Source: an uncultured Rikenellaceae bacterium (lineage in GTDB: Bacteria > Bacteroidota > Bacteroidia > Bacteroidales > Rikenellaceae). From it: a stretch of DNA of 64,000 bases. Where the stretch lies: contig CALVFY010000001.1 in NCBI GenBank assembly GCA_944326945.1, positions 1-64,000 on the forward strand. Direction: 5' to 3'. A program made the translations under genes and the position numbers. How positions within the stretch are numbered: the stretch's first letter is position 1; every line of letters starts with the position of its first letter. Positions 11,833 to 62,854 of the stretch are shown here, piece after piece. The notes under the pieces were generated by a model that had not been told where the DNA came from, did not search any database, and worked only from the letters and a program-made list of their open reading frames with translations.

Positions 11833-12543
11833 TTATAATCCTCCTCCTCCGATGCGAATGCCGGCTACGATTCGTGCCATGGCTCGAATACGATTCCGGT
11901 CGATTTCCCGGCCGGGAAGGGTGGGATCGGCACCCCGCAATTCAAGAGACCCCTCTTGTTTGCCGGGGCGCAGATAACGTACCGTGATGTACTCTTCGTC
12001 TTCCATTTCTACTCCGAGAAGATGCATGTCTCCCCAAAAAGGATCCGTTTCCGGTGTGATACTTCGGTAGAGAGCCAGGTCGCCTCGTCGCAGAAGGGGG
12101 GACATCCCGTCGTCGTGTATGCGTAGTGCTCCGTCGCAACGAGGAAGGCCTGGTATCTGAAGGTGGTCCGTCGGTTGGATGGTTTCCGGATGGTGCAATA
12201 ATTGGGAGAGGCCCTCTGGAGGAGCCGTCTCATAGAGTGGGATGATTTGGCGGTAACGGGAACCGCCTTCGGGTATCGGAAGAGGGGTGAAAAGGTCTTT
12301 GGTACTTTCGGCGCCCTCTTTCGGTTCAGTCAACATGGGGCCCAGACCATTGTCCAGCCAGGAAGGGTTAATGCCGTATGCCCGGATCAGTAGATCTCGA
12401 TTGCGCGCAGAGAGAGCTGTATGCCCTGTTTCGATCATCGAAAGGGCGCTTTTCCCGATTCCTAACCGTGCGGCTACCGCATCTTGTGTTAGACGTAACT
12501 CTTTTCGGAAGAGTTTAAGGCGTTCCGGAAGTGTTGTTTTCAT
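11833..12543 (-). CDS. XRE/S24-like phage-type repressor with degenerate peptidase site
   Basis: A 236-residue protein. Residues 8-62 form a helix-turn-helix (LRLTQDAVAARLGIGKSALSMIETG). Residues 125-230 match the LexA/CI-like S24 fold (ALRIHDDGMSPLLRRGDLAL, then YITVRYL). The Ser of the GDSM motif is Gly146 here, and the usual Lys of the VKR motif is Arg189. Both self-cleavage residues are therefore replaced, and RecA-stimulated autoproteolysis is not expected. It is divergent from the large terminase with 171 bp between them. Its own -7 element overlaps a 23 bp near-palindrome, which suggests autoregulation. Function as repressor of the terminase or phage-like genes is inferred from position. 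Confidence 0.85.
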   Translation of the reverse strand: MKTTLPERLKLFRKELRLTQDAVAARLGIGKSALSMIETGHTALSARNRDLLIRAYGINPSWLDNGLGPMLTEPKEGAESTKDLFTPLPIPEGGSRYRQIIPLYETAPPEGLSQLLHHPETIQPTDHLQIPGLPRCDGALRIHDDGMSPLLRRGDLALYRSITPETDPFWGDMHLLGVEMEDEEYITVRYLRPGKQEGSLELRGADPTLPGREIDRNRIRAMARIVAGIRIGGGGL

Positions 12544-12569
12544 GGCGGTTCAATGGCTGAATCATAAGG

Positions 12570-12597
12570 CAAAAATAAGGTAAATTTTTTATCTTAT
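12570..12597 (-). promoter_or_regulatory. Repressor promoter with candidate operator palindrome
   Basis: The minus strand has TATTTTTG (12570-12577), matching TAnnTTTG. It overlaps the near-palindrome at 12575-12597 (arms ATAAGGTAA and TTATCTTAT, one mismatch in the arms). A palindrome over the regulator's own -7 box is the expected place for an autoregulatory operator. Confidence 0.5.
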
Positions 12598-12644
12598 GGC
12601 GTATTTGTTCCATTTTATGGAAAGAGGACGGAGGTTCTGTCTGT

Positions 12645-12652
12645 TATTTTTG
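12645..12652 (+). promoter_or_regulatory. Candidate -7 element of the terminase gene
   Basis: TATTTTTG matches TAnnTTTG 63 bases upstream of the terminase ATG. No clear TTTG is seen at the -33 position, so this is either weak or activator-dependent. Confidence 0.4.
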
Positions 12653-12714: not shown

Positions 12715-14178
12715 ATGATGAGTAAAAAGAAAAAACAATCTTCTTGCCTTGAGCCTGATTTCGTCCGGTTTGCCCAGACAATTTTCCCGACGATAGAACT
12801 TACGCCTTTTCATGAGGCCTATTATCGTGTGTTGGATGCATTTGCGCATGGTCTTGTGCGCCGGCTGATCGTGACCGTGCCTCCGCAACATGGTAAGTCA
12901 TTGGGCGCTTGTGAATTGTTGCCGGCCTATCTGTTGGGGCTTGATCCCGATCGCCGGATTACGATTGCTTCTTATGCCGCTTCGTTGGCTATGCGATTCA
13001 ATCGCCGGGTACAGCGATCGATGATTTCTCCGGCTTATTGTGAAATTTTTCCGCATACGCAGATTAAAGGTTCTCCCGGACTTTCGGCGCAGGAGTGTGC
13101 TGGCTATATGCGTACGAGCGAACGTGTGGAGATTGTGGGGCATGAGGGCGAACTTTTTGCCGTGGGACGTGAAGGAGCACTTACCGGAAATCGTGTTGAT
13201 ACGTTTATTTTGGACGATCTGTATCGGGATGCCATGGAGGCCGATTCGCCTCTGATTCGGGAAAATTGTTGGGAATGGTACACCTCGGTGGTGAAGACCC
13301 GTCAACACAATGCCTCTTCGGAGTTGCTGGTCTTTACCCGTTGGCATGAGGAAGATTTGATAGGGAGGATTATGGCTCGCGAACCGGTTGAGAGACTCAC
13401 TCGGTGGCAACAACTTGATGAACCGCGAAAGGGATGGTTGGCGCTTCATTTTGAGGCTCTTAAAGAGGGTGAGCCTACCGAAATAGATCCACGTAGCCCC
13501 GGAGAGGCGCTTTGGGCGGATAGGCATAGTGCCTTGTTGTTGCGGGAGAAAGCTCGTCTTGACCCCTGGCGATTCGAGGCTCTCTATCAAGGACATCCCT
13601 GTTCCAGGGAGGGATTGCTTTATGGAGATGGCTTTGGGGTCTACGATGCTCTGCCCGGTGACGATGAGGTGGTGCGGCGAGCGAATTATACAGATACGGC
13701 CGATACCGGAGACGATTTTCTTTGTTCGGTTTGTTATGTGGTGGATCGCTCCGGGATAATTTATGTCACGGATGTGGTCTATTCCAGGGAACGTATGGAG
13801 GTGACGGAACAACTGGTCGCTTCTATGCTGGAAAAGGATGAGTCTCGGCATGCATGGATCGAGAGTAATAATGGTGGGCGTGGATTTGCGCGAGCAGTAG
13901 CCCGATTGACGACTTTGGTGCGAGTGGAGTGGTTCTGCCAGACGGCAAACAAGGAGGCTCGTATTTTGTCTAACTCCTCTACCGTGCTTCGTCAGATACG
14001 TATGCCTCGTGATTGGGAGAGTCTGTGGCCTTTGTTTGCTCGGCATGTGACGACTTATCGGCGTAATTTTCGGGCCAATCGTTGGCATGATGCTCCCGAT
14101 GTGTTGACTGGAATTATCGAACGTGAGATGCTTATGCCTCGTCGTAGTAGATTGCAGGCGGTTAGTTTCTTGAGATAA
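12715..14178 (+). CDS. Phage-type terminase large subunit
   Basis: A 487-residue packaging motor that looks fully intact. The ATPase has a Walker A motif VPPQHGKS (about 55-62) and a Walker B/catalytic pair FILDD (167-168). The C-terminal RNase H-like nuclease has acidic residues in YTDTADTGDDF (Asp327), WIESNNGG (Glu383) and HDAPDVLTG (Asp459/462). It cuts and pumps DNA into a procapsid. No small terminase, portal or capsid gene lies beside it; those with a structural role are at 59-62 kb on the same strand. It is divergent from an S24-like regulator and followed by a small-RNA locus. An ATG at 12718 is an alternative start. Composition resembles the host genes, with no sign of recent import. 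Confidence 0.93.
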   Translation: MMSKKKKQSSCLEPDFVRFAQTIFPTIELTPFHEAYYRVLDAFAHGLVRRLIVTVPPQHGKSLGACELLPAYLLGLDPDRRITIASYAASLAMRFNRRVQRSMISPAYCEIFPHTQIKGSPGLSAQECAGYMRTSERVEIVGHEGELFAVGREGALTGNRVDTFILDDLYRDAMEADSPLIRENCWEWYTSVVKTRQHNASSELLVFTRWHEEDLIGRIMAREPVERLTRWQQLDEPRKGWLALHFEALKEGEPTEIDPRSPGEALWADRHSALLLREKARLDPWRFEALYQGHPCSREGLLYGDGFGVYDALPGDDEVVRRANYTDTADTGDDFLCSVCYVVDRSGIIYVTDVVYSRERMEVTEQLVASMLEKDESRHAWIESNNGGRGFARAVARLTTLVRVEWFCQTANKEARILSNSSTVLRQIRMPRDWESLWPLFARHVTTYRRNFRANRWHDAPDVLTGIIEREMLMPRRSRLQAVSFLR

Positions 14179-14568: not shown

Positions 14569-15492
14569 TTATGCGTGTTGAAATATTTCCCGGGAGGAGT
14601 TGACCTGTGGTGTCGGATAACCGGTGGAGATATTGCTCTCACTATGGCGATTACGGTAGTTTGCTGGAGTGAGTCCGTACTCTTTCTTGAAAAGTTTGAT
14701 GAAATGAGAGGTGTTCGGGAAATTACATTCGATACCGATCTCCGAAATGGATTTGTTGGTCGAAATCAGTAATAACCGGGAGTGCATGAGTCTCTGCTTG
14801 ATGAACCATTTGTGCGGTGGTTCGAAAAAGTGTTTCTTGAACTCCTTTTTGAAAGAGGTGAGACTGCGGTTGCACATTTGTGCCAATTCGTCGATTGAAA
14901 CGTCGTTGAATATGTTTTGATGAATGGTCTGTTCGAAATTTTCCTTCATCTGGTCGATGTTGCTCAGGACTTTGCTCTTTAGACAGCAGTCGTTCTGTGT
15001 CAGAATCAGATAGATCAGTTCGGTCATTTTGAGCGTTTCGGCTGTTTCGTCCTGGGTGAACAGATCGTCTTTGATATACTGATTGATTGTTGAGAAGAAG
15101 TTGCGGATGGTGTTCCACGCGGGATAGATGACATGACTTTGTTCGCGACAATTTTCGCAACTGTGATCGTTGGTGATATTGAGTTGATAGGTCATGCTGA
15201 GTTGGGTGAGAATACGGCCCAACTGCTCGGGAGTGTAATAGAAGGTGATTTGTTCGAAGGGTTTTCCATTTTCAGGAATGTCTTCGGTATAGTGGTGGCC
15301 GGTGCCCAGATAGAAAAGGTCGCCGCGATTCACTTCATGACGCACGTCGCCGTAGTAGATGTATTTCTTTCCGCGGAGGATGTAGCCGATGCTGTGGCGG
15401 GAAAGATTGTGGGATTGGATACCGTTCCGATATGGTTGGACGTATTTCACGATCATCGGTTGTTGGGTAGAAGTTGGGAAACGGTTCGTCAT
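14569..15492 (-). CDS. AraC-family transcriptional regulator
   Basis: A 307-residue protein. The N-terminal half looks like an AraC-type cupin sensor (HSIGYILRGKKYIYYGDVRHEV, then GDLFYLGTG). The C-terminal residues, about 190-290, carry the double helix-turn-helix (SIDELAQMCNRSLTSFKKEFKKHF, then SEIGIECNFPNTSHFIKLFKKEYG with the family signature ending TPANYR). A CENC cysteine pair lies between the domains and could sense redox state or metal, but this is speculative. It is divergent from bioA across a 526 bp AT-rich gap. The regulated genes and effector are unknown. Confidence 0.92.
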   Translation of the reverse strand: MTNRFPTSTQQPMIVKYVQPYRNGIQSHNLSRHSIGYILRGKKYIYYGDVRHEVNRGDLFYLGTGHHYTEDIPENGKPFEQITFYYTPEQLGRILTQLSMTYQLNITNDHSCENCREQSHVIYPAWNTIRNFFSTINQYIKDDLFTQDETAETLKMTELIYLILTQNDCCLKSKVLSNIDQMKENFEQTIHQNIFNDVSIDELAQMCNRSLTSFKKEFKKHFFEPPHKWFIKQRLMHSRLLLISTNKSISEIGIECNFPNTSHFIKLFKKEYGLTPANYRNRHSESNISTGYPTPQVNSSREIFQHA

Positions 15493-54087: not shown

Positions 54088-54366
54088 ATGATTTTTGTAG
54101 GGAAAATGGCTGCGTTAAAGAGAAATACAGAATTGGATGGAACGGTTTGTCCTGGGAATGGAGTCGGTTTTTATGTTGATAATCAACAATCTGTTGCGTT
54201 GTCTGGACGAAAAGATGAAATCGTGAAGTTGATTTCGAAGGCCTGTGATGAACTGCATAGTTATGCGGAAGAACGGTTGAAATTGAAGTTGTCGGAAGGT
54301 TGTGCGGTTGGGGTAAATCGTGAATTGAAAGATTTGATTCGGGTGTTGAAAAAAGAGATTTATTAA
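54088..54366 (+). CDS. Small protein of unknown function at the start of the phage block
   Basis: A 92-residue soluble protein (from the ATG at 54088; 86 residues from the better ATG at 54106 with AGGG upstream). It has an amphipathic helical C-terminal half (KLISKACDELHSYAEERLKLKLSEG) and no membrane segment. Not recognised. It is the first plus-strand gene after rnhB and is separated from the next by 125 bp, so it may be a regulator of the block or a separate small gene. Confidence 0.5.
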   Translation: MIFVGKMAALKRNTELDGTVCPGNGVGFYVDNQQSVALSGRKDEIVKLISKACDELHSYAEERLKLKLSEGCAVGVNRELKDLIRVLKKEIY

Positions 54367-54491
54367 CAGTTGATTTGCCTCTTTGTGTCGTTTGTGAACC
54401 GGTTATTAACACGATGTTGACGGTTTTATCAACGGTTTGGACGGCTGTATAGAGAGGGGTGTCGAACGGTGCTGTCTTAAAAATCAAAATT

Positions 54492-54908
54492 ATGCGTGAA
54501 ATTTTAACGGCTGCTTTGAAAAAGGCGGTTGAAGAGGAGGGGTATATTTTTTATTCCGGGTTTGAGTATCGCGCCGGAAAGATCGAAGGAAATTTTCCTG
54601 CGGTATGGTTGGCCCCTCCGAAATTGGTGAATGTGACAGGCGAGGAAGATGGTGAGAGAGAATATGCCGTGGAACTGGTATTGATGGCCTCGGGTGTCGG
54701 CATAAAGGAGAGGGGGGATGTCTGGAGTAAATTGGAACAGGATGCGGTGGAAATTTATCATCGGATCGGGAAAGAGTGTGCTGTGGTGAGGGTGGAAGAT
54801 CTGAAATGTTGGCCGGGAGAGTATGCTTTAACCGGTTATGGCGAGGTGTCGATGAAAATGACATGTCGGGTGGTGTTGTTTTGGCAAAATGGATGGTGTG
54901 AAAAATAA
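54492..54908 (+). CDS. Putative phage tail-completion/neck protein
   Basis: A 138-residue soluble alpha/beta protein. Its layout is an N-terminal helix (REILTAALKKAVEEEG), a central beta region with AVWLAPPKL and YAVELVLMASG, a helix (DVWSKLEQDAVEIYHRIGKE) and a final beta pair. This arrangement resembles small phage tail-terminator/completion proteins, which also show a helix before a beta sheet and a substrate-like loop. No sequence signature is decisive; the position at the head of phage structural genes is the main support. The ATG at 54492 starts the helix. Confidence 0.45.
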   Translation: MREILTAALKKAVEEEGYIFYSGFEYRAGKIEGNFPAVWLAPPKLVNVTGEEDGEREYAVELVLMASGVGIKERGDVWSKLEQDAVEIYHRIGKECAVVRVEDLKCWPGEYALTGYGEVSMKMTCRVVLFWQNGWCEK

Positions 54909-54921
54909 AACCAACAAAAAA

Positions 54922-55956
54922 ATGATACAGGTGGTGAGTAGTCCCGAAGCGTATTCGGGGTGTTTGGATGAGGTGATTTATGAAATATCCGGTTGTAGTG
55001 CGGACACGGCTACGGAGGTGGAGATATTAGGTCGGAAAAGTGGGAATGAGGAGTTGGTTTTAGGGGTGAAGGTGTTTTATGGTGCGACCGATTATCGGGT
55101 GAATGTGGCCGGTTATGTGCGTGATCTGTTTGAGGAGATCTCTTTGGTGCAGAGTAAATCAGGATGGGTGGACGGCTCGAAATATGTGGCTTGGGTGCGG
55201 GTGAGAATAGAAGATGTGGTGTCTGAGTGGTGTCCGTTATTGTCGGGAATTCGGAGTGTGGCAGAGGGTGATATGCTTTCTGCGGGGCCGGTTGAACGTG
55301 TATTGGCTGTGGGGGAGTGGGATGAGTGTGTGTGGAGAAAAAAATCGGCAAGTGTATCGGCATCGTTGAAATTGATAGGCGAATCGGAGAAAGAGTGTGT
55401 GATTGATCTTGGAACTTGCGATTTGACCGATGATATCGTCGGAATCTCGGTGAATTGGGATGATTTGGAGGAACAGCTCCTGGCAAAAGGTCTTTCTATG
55501 AAAGAGTTCGTTCGATTGATAGTTGAATGTCGTGGAGAAGAGGCTGTGCCGGTTGTGCTCAGAGAGTATAGGCTGGAGCCCTGTCTGAGAAACAATTTGC
55601 GTTTGGCTTGGAGAAACGAAGTCGGTGGGGTGGATTATTATACCTTTTCGCGGTCTGTTCAGGAAACCGCTGTAATTGATAAAATAAAGGCTCAGACGGC
55701 TTCGGAAGTTCATGTTTTGGAGAGTCGGGTGGAATGTGTGAGAAGGTTGGTGTCTCGGTGTGAGCCGAGTGAGGTAATGCGATGGTTGGTGTCGTTGATG
55801 GCTGCCAGGCAGGTGTGGTGGATCGGTTCGGGATCGGAAAAGAGGATTCGTGTCGTTCCCGTGGATGTGATGGCGGAAAAAAGTGTGCTGAAAGAGGAGG
55901 GCAAACTGTGCCGTTGGGAAGTAGAGGTCAAACCCTTACAGAAAATGCTGTTCTAA
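54922..55956 (+). CDS. Phage structural (tail-tip-like) protein
   Basis: A 344-residue protein, beta-rich with no signal peptide. A segment near residue 230 reads WRNEVGGVDYYTFSR, similar to the NPLGG-D-YYTF blocks I know from uncharacterised tail-associated proteins of Bacteroidota phages. The start is set at 54922 (MIQVVSSPEAYSG), although a longer frame from 54889 overlaps the previous gene. Its stop is 3 bp before the next ATG, so the two are coupled. A distal-tail or fibre-adaptor role is inferred from context, not shown. Confidence 0.55.
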   Translation: MIQVVSSPEAYSGCLDEVIYEISGCSADTATEVEILGRKSGNEELVLGVKVFYGATDYRVNVAGYVRDLFEEISLVQSKSGWVDGSKYVAWVRVRIEDVVSEWCPLLSGIRSVAEGDMLSAGPVERVLAVGEWDECVWRKKSASVSASLKLIGESEKECVIDLGTCDLTDDIVGISVNWDDLEEQLLAKGLSMKEFVRLIVECRGEEAVPVVLREYRLEPCLRNNLRLAWRNEVGGVDYYTFSRSVQETAVIDKIKAQTASEVHVLESRVECVRRLVSRCEPSEVMRWLVSLMAARQVWWIGSGSEKRIRVVPVDVMAEKSVLKEEGKLCRWEVEVKPLQKMLF

Positions 55957-55959
55957 AAG

Positions 55960-58383
55960 ATGAAAGATATGGTGAGGTTTTTTATTGATGGACAGGAAGC
56001 GGATGTGGATCGGGATGGAGTTGGGCCTATTTCTATACCAGCGGATTGGTTGACCGGATTGGAGGAAGATGATCGAAAAGGGAGGGCGTTGCAAGTGAAG
56101 GTGCCGGCAACCCTGAGAAACCGGACTATCATCGGTGACGTGGATGAAATTGCTGACGGAACTTTTTTTAATCAGCAGGAACATCGTGGATGGATGGAGG
56201 TCGATGGGTGTCGGCTGGCGGAAGGAGAACTTTGTTTACGGGAAGTGGAACATGGAGCTGAAGGCATTTGGTTCGTTTTTGAAATTGAAATGCTCGGAAA
56301 GCCCTGGGCAAATTCGGCCGCAGAAGAAATGTTGCGAAAACTTGATGGCGAGTTTCAGATTGTATTGCGTGGTGATACGATTGCTCAGAGTTGGACCTGG
56401 GATCAGGCTGTCAGGTTCTTGCCAGTACAACGGCAGGAGATGTTGAGTGAAAATCCTGATGGAAATCTGATAGAACCCGTCAGGGTGCTGACGGTGGAGG
56501 ATTATCATCCTTTTTTGCATGTGAGATCGTTGTTGGAAAAAATGGTCGGGAAGGAAGGTTATCGTATCCGATCGGACTTTTTCGATAGCGAACTCTTTAA
56601 TGCTCTCTATTTGAGCGGAAATTATATCGTCCATGATGTGGAATTGCTTCGCAGCAGGATGGATTTCCGGGCAGGAAGATTCAAAGATGCTGAGGCTGTG
56701 ACGGATCGATTCGGTTATGTGTATGCAGGACAAGCTGCCTCGGAAAATTCGTTAGGTGGGTTGGTCGATACGGCTGATCCGAATGAGGTCTCCGATGGGG
56801 CCTCGATTGAGGGGGTATTCGATGTGGGGGGATGTTTCGGAAACGAAGATGGTGTCGCCGTGTTCTATCCTCCTCAGGAAGTGGTGCTTGGGTTCGAATA
56901 TGGGTTGAGATATACGACCGATACTTGGTTGGCTTCGCGAGAGGAGTTGTTCGGGATTAATCGGGTGAAATTACCCGGCGAAGAGTTCCGGCAGTTCCGT
57001 ATTGCCAATCGAAATGTGGACCGCAGGGGGGAATATGCCGCTAATTTCAGCTATTTGTTGGTTGTGTTCGACTATGTCGAAGGGGAAAGTTTCCAGTTGA
57101 GGCATGACGTAGTGAGTGATCCTTCGGCAGATTTGGATCATTTGCAAGAGGGGGAATTCAGTACGGAAGTGGCTGCTGAATTTGCCGCGCGTACGTTTAA
57201 TGTGGGTACGTATACCGAAAATCGTTTGCTGAATCCCGTGTTGTGGGTGCGTGAGGGCGAAACATTTGTCCCGTATCAGGGAGATTGGGCGTTGTATGAC
57301 GGATATGTGACCGAAAGAGGCAGTGCTGAAATCGAATTTACTGTATGCAGTGCTCCCGAAAGATTGTTGCCGTCTCAGCCGAAATATTTCGACAGGATCA
57401 TATTCGCTGGACCGGAACAGGGTATGAAGATGACGCTCAGTAAACGGACTACATTGAGACCGCGGTTTACGGCAAATCCTGGTGAGGGAAGTATGGTACC
57501 TTTTGAGGAATTGGCGGAACATCGCGTGAGGCAAATTAAGGTGATCGAGGCTGTGAAGCATCTTTTTAACCTTTATTTCTATACGGATAATCGGACCAAA
57601 ACCCTCTATATTGAACCTGAAAAGGATTTTTATCGGAAGGATGTATGGGTGGATTGGAGCCGAAAGGTCGATAAGACGCATCCTGTGGTGGTTGAAGAGA
57701 TCGGAAAGGAGTCGCATAAGATCACGACATTGTGTTATCAGGAAGGGGATGGCGCTGTGGATCAATGGAATGTGGAACATGAAGAGATTCTCGGTAGTTG
57801 GAGTAGAGAGATTCGGAATAGATTTGCTCAAAAAGGAGAAGAAATTATTCAGAATCCGATGGCAACCGCTTCGATTGTGAAAGAAGGGGTTTATGCTGAA
57901 GCTCCCAGTGTCGGCTTTCTGCAAGTCGGATTGCGGGATCAAGAGTCTGAACAGAATGGGGAGAATGTGAATTTCCCTGCTAAGTTCGTCTATTATTTCG
58001 GTATGAAAGAGTTGCCCGAAGGAGAGTTGTGGGGCTGGCCCGGAAATGGAAAAATGTATCCGGAGATGGCCTTTCATAGAGCCGCTTCGGAGGGGAATGA
58101 ATCGGTTTCTCTATTGTTTGAGGACAGGGATGGCGTGGAGGGACTGCATCGGTTTTATGATATCGATTTCAGAAGATGTGATTTGGGTAGGAAGGTGACG
58201 GTGTGGCTCTTATTGGAGCCGCAGGATATGGAAAATCTGTTGACCCCCAACCGGCTGATGAGGGATTTCAGAGCTTTGTTCCGGCTGGGAATCGGTGGGG
58301 AAAATATGCTTTTCAGATTGGAGAGTGTGAGTGATTATCGCCCGGGAAAGGCCGCAAAATGTGTATTCTTTTCCGAAGTGTAA
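55960..58383 (+). CDS. Large phage tail/baseplate-hub-like protein
   Basis: An 807-residue protein, the largest of the block. It starts RFFIDGQEADV and contains DYHPFLHVRSLLEKMVGKEGYRI followed by DFFDSELFNALYLSG. The pattern H-P-F-L-x-V-K/R...GY is one I associate with hub or tail-tip proteins of Bacteroidota siphophages, where a similar segment precedes a large beta domain. No lytic or peptidoglycan-cleaving motif is visible. Composition and codon use resemble the host's, which suggests long residence. The exact role is inferred. Confidence 0.6.
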   Translation: MKDMVRFFIDGQEADVDRDGVGPISIPADWLTGLEEDDRKGRALQVKVPATLRNRTIIGDVDEIADGTFFNQQEHRGWMEVDGCRLAEGELCLREVEHGAEGIWFVFEIEMLGKPWANSAAEEMLRKLDGEFQIVLRGDTIAQSWTWDQAVRFLPVQRQEMLSENPDGNLIEPVRVLTVEDYHPFLHVRSLLEKMVGKEGYRIRSDFFDSELFNALYLSGNYIVHDVELLRSRMDFRAGRFKDAEAVTDRFGYVYAGQAASENSLGGLVDTADPNEVSDGASIEGVFDVGGCFGNEDGVAVFYPPQEVVLGFEYGLRYTTDTWLASREELFGINRVKLPGEEFRQFRIANRNVDRRGEYAANFSYLLVVFDYVEGESFQLRHDVVSDPSADLDHLQEGEFSTEVAAEFAARTFNVGTYTENRLLNPVLWVREGETFVPYQGDWALYDGYVTERGSAEIEFTVCSAPERLLPSQPKYFDRIIFAGPEQGMKMTLSKRTTLRPRFTANPGEGSMVPFEELAEHRVRQIKVIEAVKHLFNLYFYTDNRTKTLYIEPEKDFYRKDVWVDWSRKVDKTHPVVVEEIGKESHKITTLCYQEGDGAVDQWNVEHEEILGSWSREIRNRFAQKGEEIIQNPMATASIVKEGVYAEAPSVGFLQVGLRDQESEQNGENVNFPAKFVYYFGMKELPEGELWGWPGNGKMYPEMAFHRAASEGNESVSLLFEDRDGVEGLHRFYDIDFRRCDLGRKVTVWLLLEPQDMENLLTPNRLMRDFRALFRLGIGGENMLFRLESVSDYRPGKAAKCVFFSEV

Positions 58384-58405
58384 TTGGTCTTAAAAAAATA
58401 TCAGA

Positions 58406-58675
58406 ATGACTACTTATGAAAATCAATTGATGCAGTTGATTGAAGATCGCTGTGGAAATTTTTCTCCGAAAGAGGTGGCCGAAAAGCTGATTCGGATAGG
58501 TGTTGTCGATTTTTCCAGGTGTAAAATATTAGCGGTGAGAGAGTATGTGCAGGAACAGATGAAAAAGGGAAAACTGAAAGTGGATGTGATGTGGGAGGCA
58601 GCAGAACGTTTCGCTTGTTCGTATGAATATGTCAGAAAGTGTGTCTACTATTATAGAGATGTGAATTGGAGATAA
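58406..58675 (+). CDS. Small helical protein of the phage block
   Basis: An 89-residue protein that is almost all alpha helical (NQLMQLIEDRCGNFSPKEVAEKLIRIG) and ends in an aromatic-rich helix (CSYEYVRKCVYYYRDV) that reads like a helix-turn-helix recognition region. Not recognised. It starts 23 bp after the tail gene. It might be a small DNA-binding or packaging factor, for example the missing small terminase, but the sequence does not prove it. Confidence 0.5.
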   Translation: MTTYENQLMQLIEDRCGNFSPKEVAEKLIRIGVVDFSRCKILAVREYVQEQMKKGKLKVDVMWEAAERFACSYEYVRKCVYYYRDVNWR

Positions 58676-58742
58676 GTCCGATTCCGTGGAAATGCTCGGC
58701 TGGAAGGTGTGTTTACATTTGTCGTACGGTATAGTGAAAAAA

Positions 58743-59765
58743 ATGACTGGAATATTCAAAATTGAAAATCGTGATGCAGGGGTTGTGCAGATCGATATTG
58801 AGGGGGTGATCGGGGTCTCGGAAGTTGCTCAATTCGATGAACCTCAGGGGCGGATCGCTACTTATGGGGAGTTTAAAAAAAAGGTCGAACAGATTAGAAA
58901 TATTCGGGCTCCCAGGGTGGAAGTCAATATCCGTTCGACCGGAGGAGAAGTGAATGATGCGTTGCTCATTCATGATGCTTTGGTGGGACTGGATGCGGAG
59001 GTGACGACGCGTTGTTTCGGGTATGTCGCTTCGGCGGCTACGATTATCGCTCAGGCGGCTTCCATCGGCCGGAGAGAGATCTCTTCGAATGCGCTCTATC
59101 TGATTCATAACTCCGTGTCGTGCGGAGAGGGGAATGCCCGAATGTTGGGCGAAACAGTGGCTCTGTTGAAGCAGACCGATCGAAGAATCGCTGAACTGTA
59201 TGCTCGGCGGTCTGGACGTAAGGTGGATGTGTTTGAAAAGTTGATGGGTGAAAATGGGGGGAATGGTCGCTGGTTGTCCCCGAAAGAGGTGCTCGATGCA
59301 GGGTTGGCTGACCGGATTGTTGCAGCTGAGCCGTTGAAAAACGATGCAATGAAAATGATCGCCGAATTGGGCCTGCCGAAGCCTCCTTACAAAATGTTTA
59401 ATCAAAATCAAATCTCTCAGGGTATGAATATATCAAAAAAATGGTCGGCCTTATTGGACGTGCTTGGTTGGCAGGCCGGAAAAGAGAAATCTTTGGGTGA
59501 ACGCGAAATGCAGCGAATTGATGAAGAGCTCGCCCAGCGTGGTCGTGTGATTGATCGGATGGTTCAGGAAAAAGAAAAAAATGACGGAGAACATCGTCTC
59601 GAGGTGGAACGCTTACAGAATCGGATCGCGCAGTTGGAGGCCTTGAATGCCCGGCTGAAGGCTGGCGCCTCTTGTGTTAAGCCCAGAGAAGACCCTTCGG
59701 TGCATGAGTATCGTCGCGCGGCCAATGACGATGCCTATGAACTGGATGCTAAAGGTTTCAAATAG
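58743..59765 (+). CDS. ClpP-type phage head maturation protease fused to a scaffold-like tail
   Basis: A 340-residue protein. Residues 1-200 form a ClpP/S14-like protease: VNIRSTGGEVNDALLIHDAL (oxyanion strand), the nucleophile Ser in GYVASAATIIAQAAS, and the catalytic His in LYLIHNSVSCG. Residues about 235-320 are a charged coiled-coil (MQRIDEELAQRGRVIDRMVQ onward), as in phages where protease and scaffold are one polypeptide. It would process the capsid shell during assembly. The start is uncertain: GTG at 58686 or ATG at 58743; the latter begins at the conserved fold. The major capsid gene follows by 36 bp. Confidence 0.88.
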   Translation: MTGIFKIENRDAGVVQIDIEGVIGVSEVAQFDEPQGRIATYGEFKKKVEQIRNIRAPRVEVNIRSTGGEVNDALLIHDALVGLDAEVTTRCFGYVASAATIIAQAASIGRREISSNALYLIHNSVSCGEGNARMLGETVALLKQTDRRIAELYARRSGRKVDVFEKLMGENGGNGRWLSPKEVLDAGLADRIVAAEPLKNDAMKMIAELGLPKPPYKMFNQNQISQGMNISKKWSALLDVLGWQAGKEKSLGEREMQRIDEELAQRGRVIDRMVQEKEKNDGEHRLEVERLQNRIAQLEALNARLKAGASCVKPREDPSVHEYRRAANDDAYELDAKGFK

Positions 59766-59801
59766 TAGGGATCGAATGATCCGAATTAAATCGAAAAAAC
59801 A

Positions 59802-61034
59802 ATGAGTAAAATTGAACAAGCCAAGTCGTATACGGGACAAGATCTCGAAACGATTTTTTTCAGACCGATGTTGAATGGCCCAGATGCCGAAAAATTGGGA
59901 ATACGGGTGATGTATAACATGCCCGTCCCTACGGTACTCCATTTTTGGAAACGGGAGGGAAATATCCTGCAAAAGTATCTGTCGGCCGGTTGGAGTGGGG
60001 GTGAGCCTGCCGCCAAATTTCAAAAAACCATTAACCTGTCGAAGGTGAAGGCTGAAATCGGATACTCCGCGGAGGACTATTTCAATATGGTCTATGAGTT
60101 GATCACGAATCGTTCGGATGTAAATCTGGAAGATTTGTCTGGTACGGAATTGGAGGTGGCTGAGACCGCTCTGTTCAGGGAGGCGATTGCCGAAAGTATT
60201 CGGGCAACCATGTGGCTCGGGGATACCTCTAAGGAGGAGGGTCTCAATACTTTCGACGGTTTCCTCAAGCAGATTACGAGTGACTTGGGAACGGATGAGG
60301 AGTCGGTATGCGGCTTTTTGATGCCCAAAAACGAAGAGACGAACTGGGCTGAATCGGTGTTCAAACAGTTGTGGGAGAAAGCGCCCAGAGCTTTGAAGGC
60401 GGCCAAGGCTGAGGGAAATCTGGTGTTTCTCGTTACTTCGGATGTGTATGCCGCTTATGAGGAAGCACTCGAAAATGTATTGTTGGAGTCGGCTTTCATC
60501 GCTCGGCAAGAAGGTCGGAGTACACTTTCGTTTCGGGGTATTCCGGTGATCGATGTACAGTTGGCCGATTATCTCGAGCAACAATCCGAAATGCCTCATT
60601 CTTTTGCCTTGTTGACCGATCGACGAAATCTGGCTCTGGCTGTTAATACGGCGGCATTCCCGGGAACGGAAGTCAGAATGTGGTACAATCCCGATCAGAT
60701 GGAGAATCGGCAAAGAGCCGTCTTTATGGCTGGATGTGACTATCTGCTGCCGGAATTGATGTCGTTCGCTTTCGGGGCTGCCAATCTGGAATGTGATACC
60801 GACAGCGTGACTGAAAGTGGTGGAACACTCTCGGTGACGGCCCGATCCGGAAATGTGATGATAGAGAAGATTCAGGCCGTGGGGGTGAATGCGGAAGGTG
60901 AACCTCAGGGTGAACCGGTGCTTCTTGACTTCGATGGCGAATGTTATTCGGGATCTATTACCGGAACGGGTATTACCCAGGTGCAGTTGTCGGTTGGGTA
61001 TAAGAACGGGGAGGTGCAAACGGTACTTGTGTAG
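59802..61034 (+). CDS. Phage major capsid protein
   Basis: A 410-residue protein. The N-terminal half shows an HK97-like N-arm and E-loop arrangement, with VMYNMPVPTVLHFWKREGNILQ and KVKAEIGYSAEDYFNM. A helical spine (ETALFREAIAESIRATMW) and the A-domain lead to the middle (RGIPVIDVQLADYLEQQ). A C-terminal Ig-like domain of about 75 residues (SVTESGGTLSVTARSGNVMI) is probably a surface decoration. Assignment as capsid rests on position between protease and portal and on size; no motif is decisive. A hairpin follows the stop codon, consistent with high capsid expression relative to portal. Confidence 0.75.
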   Translation: MSKIEQAKSYTGQDLETIFFRPMLNGPDAEKLGIRVMYNMPVPTVLHFWKREGNILQKYLSAGWSGGEPAAKFQKTINLSKVKAEIGYSAEDYFNMVYELITNRSDVNLEDLSGTELEVAETALFREAIAESIRATMWLGDTSKEEGLNTFDGFLKQITSDLGTDEESVCGFLMPKNEETNWAESVFKQLWEKAPRALKAAKAEGNLVFLVTSDVYAAYEEALENVLLESAFIARQEGRSTLSFRGIPVIDVQLADYLEQQSEMPHSFALLTDRRNLALAVNTAAFPGTEVRMWYNPDQMENRQRAVFMAGCDYLLPELMSFAFGAANLECDTDSVTESGGTLSVTARSGNVMIEKIQAVGVNAEGEPQGEPVLLDFDGECYSGSITGTGITQVQLSVGYKNGEVQTVLV

Positions 61035-61039
61035 CAAGG

Positions 61040-61071
61040 AAGACCGTCCGGATAATTTTCCGGACGGTCTT
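61040..61071 (+). terminator. Partial terminator between capsid and portal genes
   Basis: A perfect 13 bp stem (AAGACCGTCCGGA / TCCGGACGGTCTT), loop of 6 bases, starting 6 bases after the capsid stop. Only a short T tract follows, so leaky termination is likely, lowering portal relative to capsid transcript. Confidence 0.7.
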
Positions 61072-61092
61072 TATGGAGATATTTGTTCGGAT

Positions 61093-62385
61093 ATGGATAG
61101 AAGAAAAAAAGAAAAAAGTATCTCTGATCGTAGATCTCGGATCAGAAACCGCACAGGGGTGCAGGATACTCTGACTCCTCGGGTGAAAATGTTTGTTTCG
61201 GAGGAGCGTCGTGATCCGTTTATTGTATTGGGAAGAGTCTCCGGGACGGCGAATGACTTCTGGCGTTGGGGTGATGATAATTTATTTCCGTGTGCCTTGG
61301 CGCTGCTTTCTCGCAGGTCTGCAATTCATCGCAGGATTATCAATGACAAGGCTGATTATATCTCGGGAAAAGGCTTTTCGTTTGATCCCGCTTTGCCGGA
61401 ATTGGGAAGGTTGGTGGAATGTATCAATGGAACAGGTGAATCGTTACGTCAGCTTTTGAATAAATTGGCCTTTGATAAGGCTTTATTCGGAAATGCCTTT
61501 GCTGAAGTGGTGACCGATGGGCAGGGCAGTTTTCTCTCTCTCTTCCATCAGGATGCCTCCCGATGCAGGTTGGCGCGTGATCGTAAACATGTGCTGTTGC
61601 ATCAGGATTGGGCGCATTACAGGGCTTCTGAGGCGATTAAGTTGTCTTTGTGGCCCAATTTCGAGGTGGCGGCAGATGGAACGATGAGATCCGTAATTCA
61701 TTATAGGGATTATGAACCTTTGTTTGAAAATTATGGGGTGCCACCTTATATCGCAGGTCTCAATGTTTCGGCGATCGCCTATAAAACGGATAAGTGGAAT
61801 ATCTCGAGGTTGGATAATTCGTTCCAATTGTCGGGAGTGATGACTCTGGATGCCGGTGTGGACAATGAAGCCGAGGCTGAAGAGTTGATTCGTCGGGCAG
61901 AGAAAAAATTCGGGGGCAAACCCGGTCAGGTGATGTTTATGATTCGGGATGCGGAGGGAGCCTCGGGATCTTCATTCGTGCCGATTGCGGCAGCTAACGA
62001 CGGAGATTGGAAGGCATTGCATGAACAAGCTACCTCGGATATTGTGGTGGCGCATTCCTGGTTTCGTTCGCTCAGCGGGCTCGATTATGCGTCGGGCTTC
62101 GATGCGGAACGAATATTACATGAGTATGAGGTGGCGCTCAATACCGTGATTCTTTCCGAACAGGAGGAGCTGATGGAACCTTTAAGACAGGCAATACGGC
62201 AAGTCCTGGGGGTGGAGGCATCTTCTCTTCAGGTGGTGAATCGACCGCCGACCCGTTCCAAACCGCTGTATATGAAAGTATGGGAGGCCAGAAAAGCGGA
62301 TGGACTCGATTATGATCCGGACGATCCTCTGCAACAACTCTTCGTAGCACAGATCACTAAATATGCATTACGTAATATAGACTGA
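61093..62385 (+). CDS. Phage portal protein
   Basis: A 430-residue protein. FWRWGDDNLFPCALALLSRRSAIHRRIINDKADYISGKGF is the portal N-terminal block (quoted in parts: DNLFPCALALL, KADYISGKGF). KWNISRLDNSFQLSGVMTLDAG and RSLSGLDYASGFDAERILHE belong to the stem/wing region, and the C-terminal helices precede a QQLFVAQITKYALR end. Portals form the dodecameric DNA entry vertex that docks to the terminase. Its terminase partner is 47 kb away at 12.7 kb. The start at 61093 avoids the upstream frame that reads back into the capsid gene. The connector gene begins 1 bp after its stop. Confidence 0.85.
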   Translation: MDRRKKEKSISDRRSRIRNRTGVQDTLTPRVKMFVSEERRDPFIVLGRVSGTANDFWRWGDDNLFPCALALLSRRSAIHRRIINDKADYISGKGFSFDPALPELGRLVECINGTGESLRQLLNKLAFDKALFGNAFAEVVTDGQGSFLSLFHQDASRCRLARDRKHVLLHQDWAHYRASEAIKLSLWPNFEVAADGTMRSVIHYRDYEPLFENYGVPPYIAGLNVSAIAYKTDKWNISRLDNSFQLSGVMTLDAGVDNEAEAEELIRRAEKKFGGKPGQVMFMIRDAEGASGSSFVPIAAANDGDWKALHEQATSDIVVAHSWFRSLSGLDYASGFDAERILHEYEVALNTVILSEQEELMEPLRQAIRQVLGVEASSLQVVNRPPTRSKPLYMKVWEARKADGLDYDPDDPLQQLFVAQITKYALRNID

Positions 62386-62386
62386 G

Positions 62387-62854
62387 ATGGGAAATTTATT
62401 GGTGACACCGGGTGAAGTGGTCCAGATCGCTTTTCGGGGAGCGGAATCGGTTGATCCGAATTTGATCGGGGAGGCGATGATCGTGACGGCTCAGTATAAG
62501 TTTATTCGTCCGGTGTTGGGCAAACTGTATGAGGCTTTGTCAGAAGGTAAGTACACTCAATTACTGGATGAATATATCAAGCCTCCGCTGGCTCATTATG
62601 TCAAATGGTTGCTATTGCCTCGACTGAGTGTTCAATGCGGTACGATCGGGTTAGTCCAATTTAAAGGGGATAATTTTTCGGCCGCCGATGGCAAGGGGGT
62701 GACACGATTGGCTAAACAGGTGCGTAGTGATGCCCAAGTATTGATGAAACGGGCTGTGGAACGAATTGAATCATCTTTGGAGGAATTCCCGGAGTATGAG
62801 CCGGAACAGAATGTCTTGAACCGGATTGCCTTGATCGGGGATTGGGTGGTATAA
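62387..62854 (+). CDS. Putative phage head-tail connector protein
   Basis: A 155-residue helical protein (MTPGEVVQIAF-like start, then LIGEAMIVTAQYKFIRPVLGKLYEALSEGKY and VKWLLLPRLSVQCG). It resembles the DUF6712-type proteins I associate with head-tail junctions in Bacteroidota phages; this is tentative. It is the last gene of the block. Its stop codon lies inside the left arm of the bidirectional terminator it shares with tdk. Confidence 0.65.
   Translation: MGNLLVTPGEVVQIAFRGAESVDPNLIGEAMIVTAQYKFIRPVLGKLYEALSEGKYTQLLDEYIKPPLAHYVKWLLLPRLSVQCGTIGLVQFKGDNFSAADGKGVTRLAKQVRSDAQVLMKRAVERIESSLEEFPEYEPEQNVLNRIALIGDWVV

Follow-up and report, generated by a model that had tools for sequence, protein, structure and literature searches.

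A CI/LexA-type repressor inherited beside a terminase gene in Rikenellaceae has probably lost RecA-stimulated self-cleavage

The regulator encoded at 11833-12543 of the window, by which we mean the whole 64-kb stretch of DNA analysed here, is in our judgement probably an autoregulated repressor of the CI/LexA type that has been passed down vertically next to a terminase gene, and that has kept its HTH and its operator while losing RecA-stimulated self-cleavage. The gene and those of its parts that bear on this reading are:

11833-12543, minus strand: regulator ORF of 236 aa, with a CI-type HTH and a predicted S24/LexA-fold C-terminal domain from which the self-cleavage residues are gone (AlphaFold2 mean pLDDT 78.8)
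12355-12519, minus strand: HTH_3 DNA-binding domain, residues 9-63 (Pfam E 1.2e-11)
11851-12249, minus strand: predicted S24/LexA-fold C-terminal domain, residues 99-231 (Foldseek E about 1e-05; VIA-align Z 13.7 against LexA C-terminal domains)
12211-12216, minus strand: Glu110-Gly111, the place of the former scissile bond, which is Ala-Gly in 77 relatives (family alignment)
12106-12108, minus strand: codon of Gly146, at the position of the catalytic Ser of the family (family alignment)
11977-11979, minus strand: codon of Arg189, at the position of the catalytic Lys of the family (family alignment)

The reading frame is open over its full 236 aa. The HTH half resembles 434 Cro, P22 C2 and lambda CI by domain match, its GIGKSALSM segment is the same as in intact relatives, and in the AlphaFold2 model residues 1-68 match DNA-binding domains of the P22, 434 and lambda types. 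Beyond a linker (residues 74-95) that is modelled with low confidence, residues 99-235 match LexA C-terminal domains with Z scores of up to 13.7. The Pfam model Peptidase_S24 (PF00717) matches residues 134-226 with an E value of 5.8e-05 and 23.2 bits, the curated cut-off being 23.3, and it matches all 43 of 43 aligned sequences at E ≤0.01. As modelled, the window regulator has the C-terminal fold of LexA and CI and by its Pfam matches belongs to the S24 family. A phmmer search yielded no PDB sequence match for the C-terminal domain of an intact relative, so that the correspondence with LexA rests on the fold match together with the family alignment, and for the C-terminal domain of the regulator these two agree. 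TIGR00498, the canonical LexA model, has no match in the genome and is absent among the listed NCBIfam matches of the regulator.

The Ser-Lys dyad and the scissile Ala-Gly bond found in the S24 peptidase family are both absent from the window regulator. In the family alignment Gly146, which sits in IHDDGMSPL, stands opposite the Ser of GDSM, and Arg189, which sits in TVRYL, opposite the Lys of VKY; in the region of the scissile bond, alignment with the orthologs sets PPEGL against the TAGL of the relatives. The sister species, represented by the other genome of the genus, has DDGM and VRY as well, which makes an error of sequencing or assembly unlikely, and in its regulator an Ala-Gly survives, displaced upstream by one residue relative to the family (VTAGGL). 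The window repressor most likely cannot be inactivated by RecA-stimulated self-cleavage.

The protein is no stray phage repressor, being an ortholog of the divergent regulator that is found beside the terminase throughout Rikenellaceae: a search of 199 relatives recovered it from 116 genomes, in the window's own family mostly as a single full-length copy. Counted over 87 family orthologs, from which three g14 proteins were left out as too diverged, Ala-Gly, Ser and Lys are kept together in 77, and at least one of them is lost in the other ten, two of which come from the window's genus, six from group g4 and two from g16. The loss in g4 is graded: one state has Glu-Gly with Ser and Lys kept, others have Pro-Gly or Ser-Gly with Ser lost, another Asp-Gly with both Ser and Lys lost, and yet another retains Ala-Gly with both lost. 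Ser and Lys are retained in all 81 phage relatives that were read, of which 76 have Ala-Gly and five Ala-Ser; this set was partly fetched by a Ser-motif pattern that allows Gly or Ser, which biases the count for Ser somewhat and that for Lys not at all. Since 77/87 orthologs and 76/81 phage relatives keep all three elements, the loss in the window is not chance variation. The intact state is the commonest in the family and probably the ancestral one, and from the conserved residues we infer that the intact relatives would cleave themselves with RecA. On a terminase tree of 106 rows, which was built by a quick search and carries SH-aLRT support only, the label intact or lost needs at least four changes, namely in the window's genus, in G060/G066, in the clade of G004, G024, G038 and G054, and in G034/G078; an intermediate state, in which Ala-Gly is lost and Ser and Lys are kept, is found on it too.

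The first-pass annotation of this gene had read Gly146 for Ser and Arg189 for Lys and had concluded that the Ser-Lys self-cleavage switch is unavailable. The family alignment and the DDGM and VRY of the sister species bear out the former and support the latter, with the scissile Ala-Gly as a third missing element. Conservation of the two residues in close relatives holds for the sister species but not for the family at large, and because the wider family is intact the loss is a trait of this genus and a few other lineages rather than of the element. The same annotation had suggested an element tied to host physiology instead of DNA damage. No tie between the element and host physiology was found, only the usual damage switch being absent, and the suggestion goes unsupported; an antirepressor or other protease, permanent repression, and slow decay fit the missing residues equally well.

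Elsewhere in the same genome, contig C29 encodes an HTH protein with an S24-like tail in which the positions aligned with Ser and Lys are occupied by Ala and Arg (L004:1219-1854). A further S24 repressor is encoded on contig C11, divergently from a phage tail collar gene (L110:10106-11802); TAGL, GDSM and a Lys are intact in it, and its C-terminal domain, at about 55-60%, comes nearer to the family type than that of the window protein does. This paralog was considered as a substitute regulator and set aside: its site is intact, but it groups with phage repressors.

The elements found between the regulator and the terminase are:

12549-12561, minus strand: probable autoregulatory operator TTCA-GCCAT-TGAA, an exact instance of the family dyad TTCA-N5-TGAA (pattern match)
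12570-12577, minus strand: TATTTTTG, predicted -7 element of the regulator promoter, matching TAnnTTTG (consensus match)
12645-12652, plus strand: TATTTTTG, candidate -7 element of the terminase (pattern match only)

TAnnTTTG is the -7 promoter element of Bacteroidota. Upstream of the intact orthologs lies a palindrome, TTCAAWWWTTGAA, which is matched at eight or more of its ten scored positions in 73/76 intact orthologs as against 21% of shuffles, and at nine or ten positions in 62/76 as against 2%. It begins 15 or 16 bases past TTTG, the end of TAnnTTTG in the sequences read, in 50 of 73 cases. The window operator starts eight bases past TATTTTTG (12577-12570) and is one of three exact TTCA-N5-TGAA sites in the window; the operator of the sister species has one mismatch, and that of some other loss lineages is degraded. 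The recognition segment of the HTH is nearly identical in the window and in the intact relatives. A different palindrome, at 12575-12597, had been put forward in the first-pass annotation as a binding site. There is indeed an imperfect inverted repeat here (12563-12598), and the palindrome overlaps the regulator promoter element; as an operator, however, it was rejected, having no obvious counterpart upstream in the sister species, no match in the window to its symmetrised version (≤3 mismatches) and a better family site nearby, and 12549-12561 appears to be the better candidate.

A search of ten genomes for the exact promoter-plus-operator pattern hit the promoter of the regulator itself in three of them and, besides, a few scattered sites; in the genomes compared, no hit was close to a capsid cluster. 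The hits on its own promoter suggest that the repressor is probably autoregulatory. The divergent terminase promoter is a possible second target; with about 85-95 bp between the operator and the candidate terminase promoter, repression of the terminase is not evident.

The divergent neighbour of the regulator and the head genes with which it is associated are located as follows:

12715-14178, plus strand: terminase large subunit, encoded divergently from the regulator and conserved in the family (PHROG 38, E 2.1e-79)
54088-62854, plus strand: dispersed head-gene cluster (capsid in 101/120 family genomes)
54088-58675, plus strand: further ORFs of the head-gene cluster, carrying no assignment
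58686-59765, plus strand: head protease of the cluster
59802-61034, plus strand: major capsid-like protein of the cluster
60889-62385, plus strand: portal of the cluster
62387-62854, plus strand: DUF6712 protein of the cluster

The terminase is present in 105/120 family genomes and in 70 of the 72 good ones; for the capsid, 68 of the 72 good ones have it. Against the phage and prophage terminases included, those of the family form one clade with an SH-aLRT support of 98%. In the window 40 kb separate the terminase from the head genes, and ordinary chromosomal genes lie in the interval as well as on the outer sides; g14 and g8 genomes have the set in one contiguous block, whereas in other genomes it is dispersed. 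No integrase or replication genes were noticed among the ORFs inspected next to the terminase and head loci. As far as genes can tell, the set looks like a domesticated phage gene set whose layout recalls gene transfer agents. It is possible, if doubtful, that Rikenellaceae carry a family-wide packaging system resembling a gene transfer agent under a damage-sensing repressor, and that several lineages independently freed it of control by DNA damage, destroying self-cleavage while keeping the repressor.

Several observations on these neighbourhoods may be recorded here. For two conserved ORFs within the head cluster, at 55960-58383 (807 aa) and 54889-55956 (355 aa), neither Pfam nor PHROG gave a match. 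Between regulator and terminase, most of the family encodes a small protein (about 90-120 aa) that carries a VPVWW motif and matches nothing in Pfam (for example L137:8071-8349 and L131:8223-8558); its gene was not found in the window or in the sister-species, g8 and g14 loci searched. The AraC-type gene at 14569-15492 shares 93% identity with its sister-species ortholog, a higher value than for those neighbouring genes that were compared. The g8 genomes (L104, L106, L107) have an AraC-type regulator near the terminase, on the usual side of the S24 regulator, which they lack. The window's AraC gene was discarded as a replacement regulator: in G009, G048 and G086 its orthologs are found at a distance from the terminase, and in g8 genomes the AraC genes that adjoin the terminase resemble it no more than other g8 paralogs do.

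Once self-cleavage is lost the C-terminal domain changes rapidly, whereas several lineages keep a conserved DNA-binding half. Among intact orthologs the C-terminal domain, with a mean identity of 80%, is more conserved than the HTH with 73%; in the window's genus the order is reversed, as the C-terminal domain of the window regulator has 40% identity to the intact set and the HTH of the genus 56%. In G060/G066 the HTH remains at the intact level of 71-72% and the C-terminal domain is down to 55-59%. Between window and sister species the regulators are 69% identical and free of stops, with dN 0.23 and dS about 2.2 (NG86), a dS near saturation that makes dN/dS no more than a rough guide; the HTH is 79% identical and the linker 47%. 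We read this as retention of a DNA-binding protein after the protease function had gone.

How would such a repressor work, and how would it be released? We suggest that the regulator was inherited down Rikenellaceae beside the terminase of domesticated, dispersed phage head and packaging genes, that its ancestral type could cleave itself, Ala-Gly, Ser and Lys being conserved together in most of the family, and that the window species, having lost all three, kept the DNA-binding domain and the TTCA-N5-TGAA operator. It would still bind its own promoter as a dimer, and perhaps the divergent terminase promoter too, but would no longer be cleared by RecA-stimulated self-cleavage, so that release would either need another input or no longer happen. 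The first of these outcomes deserves attention as an alternative in its own right: some other trigger, for example a host signal, an antirepressor or a separate protease, may release the repressor, in which case the signal was changed and control was not lost. CI repressors that work without proteolysis and rely on antirepressors or other factors do exist (PMC10432266), the terminase, capsid and portal genes have low dN and no stops between window and sister species, and the HTH of G060/G066 stays at the intact level. We nevertheless hold this alternative only tentatively, as no candidate antirepressor or protease was found, the small intergenic gene of the relatives was not found in the window or sister loci searched, and the neighbouring AraC gene is unlinked to the terminase in the other genera examined.

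A regulator on its way out, in which self-cleavage goes first and the protein later, as in another lineage, seems to us rather unlikely. Three g16 genomes (G043, G069 and G081) have the terminase with no regulator beside it and group with G034/G078, the two g16 genomes whose regulators are broken, and one g4 genome has a stop codon within the regulator gene. In the window's genus itself, divergence is raised over the whole protein, the HTH included. Against decay, however, stand the frame, open in two species of the genus at 69% identity and with a dN well below dS, and the better conservation of HTH than of linker between these same two species. That a different Ser and Lys took over the active site, so that the window protein still cleaves itself, is highly improbable: Ser113 is common to both species, but K195, the sole Lys after residue 95 of the window regulator, is Arg in the sister species, whose single Lys in the C-terminal domain is at 217, so that with no Lys in common the sequences offer no genus-wide substitute for the lysine base and rescue of this kind was rejected, and moreover the Ala-Gly site is absent from the window protein and the model shows an ordinary LexA fold.

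We thus favour a retained, autoregulated repressor without self-cleavage, and it remains to place it among known systems. With LexA and the CI proteins of lambda and 434 it shares the HTH_3 half, the LexA-fold C-terminal domain and the divergent position beside a phage gene; it differs in lacking the Ser-Lys dyad and Ala-Gly, which most of its orthologs have. The nearest annotated phage repressors, those of Porphyromonas gingivalis prophages (e.g. BK068089), are about 34% identical, have an intact TAGL and keep the dyad, and they belong to annotated prophage genomes (BK068089 has a transposase).

The SOS repressors of Bacteroidetes are CI-like S24 proteins with a conserved Ala-Gly, a Ser-Lys dyad and fixed N5 dyads, and both of the non-canonical LexA groups of the phylum are reported to be absent from Bacteroidales (PMC8565304). 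The family described here resembles them, by features and not by orthology, in being chromosomal, in combining a CI-type HTH with an S24 domain, in a probable operator with its spacer fixed at 5 bases in its own promoter and, in most orthologs (77/87) though not in the window protein, in the Ala-Gly bond and the Ser-Lys dyad. The operators differ, CTAA-N5-TTAG or GGA-N5-TCC there as against TTCA-N5-TGAA here, and so do the partners, which are SOS genes there and a terminase here. An S24 repressor with a complete cleavage apparatus is thus found across a family of the very order from which the published SOS repressors of the phylum are reported absent.

Like gene transfer agents, the Rikenellaceae set has a terminase, a capsid and a portal that are kept by descent across a family and split over chromosomal sites; gene transfer agents, however, are defined by particles that package host DNA, whereas this set is known from its genes alone. 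A survey of capsid-packaged DNA in the gut assigned such activity mainly to Oscillospiraceae and Ruminococcaceae and names Rikenellaceae only for their abundance in community DNA (PMC12946183). In the literature we searched, which excluded most subscription journals and bioRxiv, we found no description of a Rikenellaceae gene transfer agent or of this locus, and a dispersed packaging gene set in this family appears to be undescribed there.

Phage repressors that are not cleaved were known before, and the CI protein of phage N15 resembles the window regulator in that it works without self-proteolysis (PMC10432266). Unlike N15 CI, however, the window regulator has an ancestor that looks cleavable; the loss is confined to certain lineages, has recurred, and concerns a bacterial gene that is inherited vertically, so that it can be traced from one lineage to the next. 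An intermediate step is available and intact sister species serve as controls, which makes this a natural experiment on the role of the S24 domain: with cleavage gone, the half of the protein that had been the most conserved turns into the more variable of the two. The damage switch looks disconnected, yet the regulator protein looks maintained in the window's genus and in at least three other lineages. Taken together, the window repressor represents a familiar type of repressor in a derived form that has arisen repeatedly, within a larger and less understood family-wide gene set.
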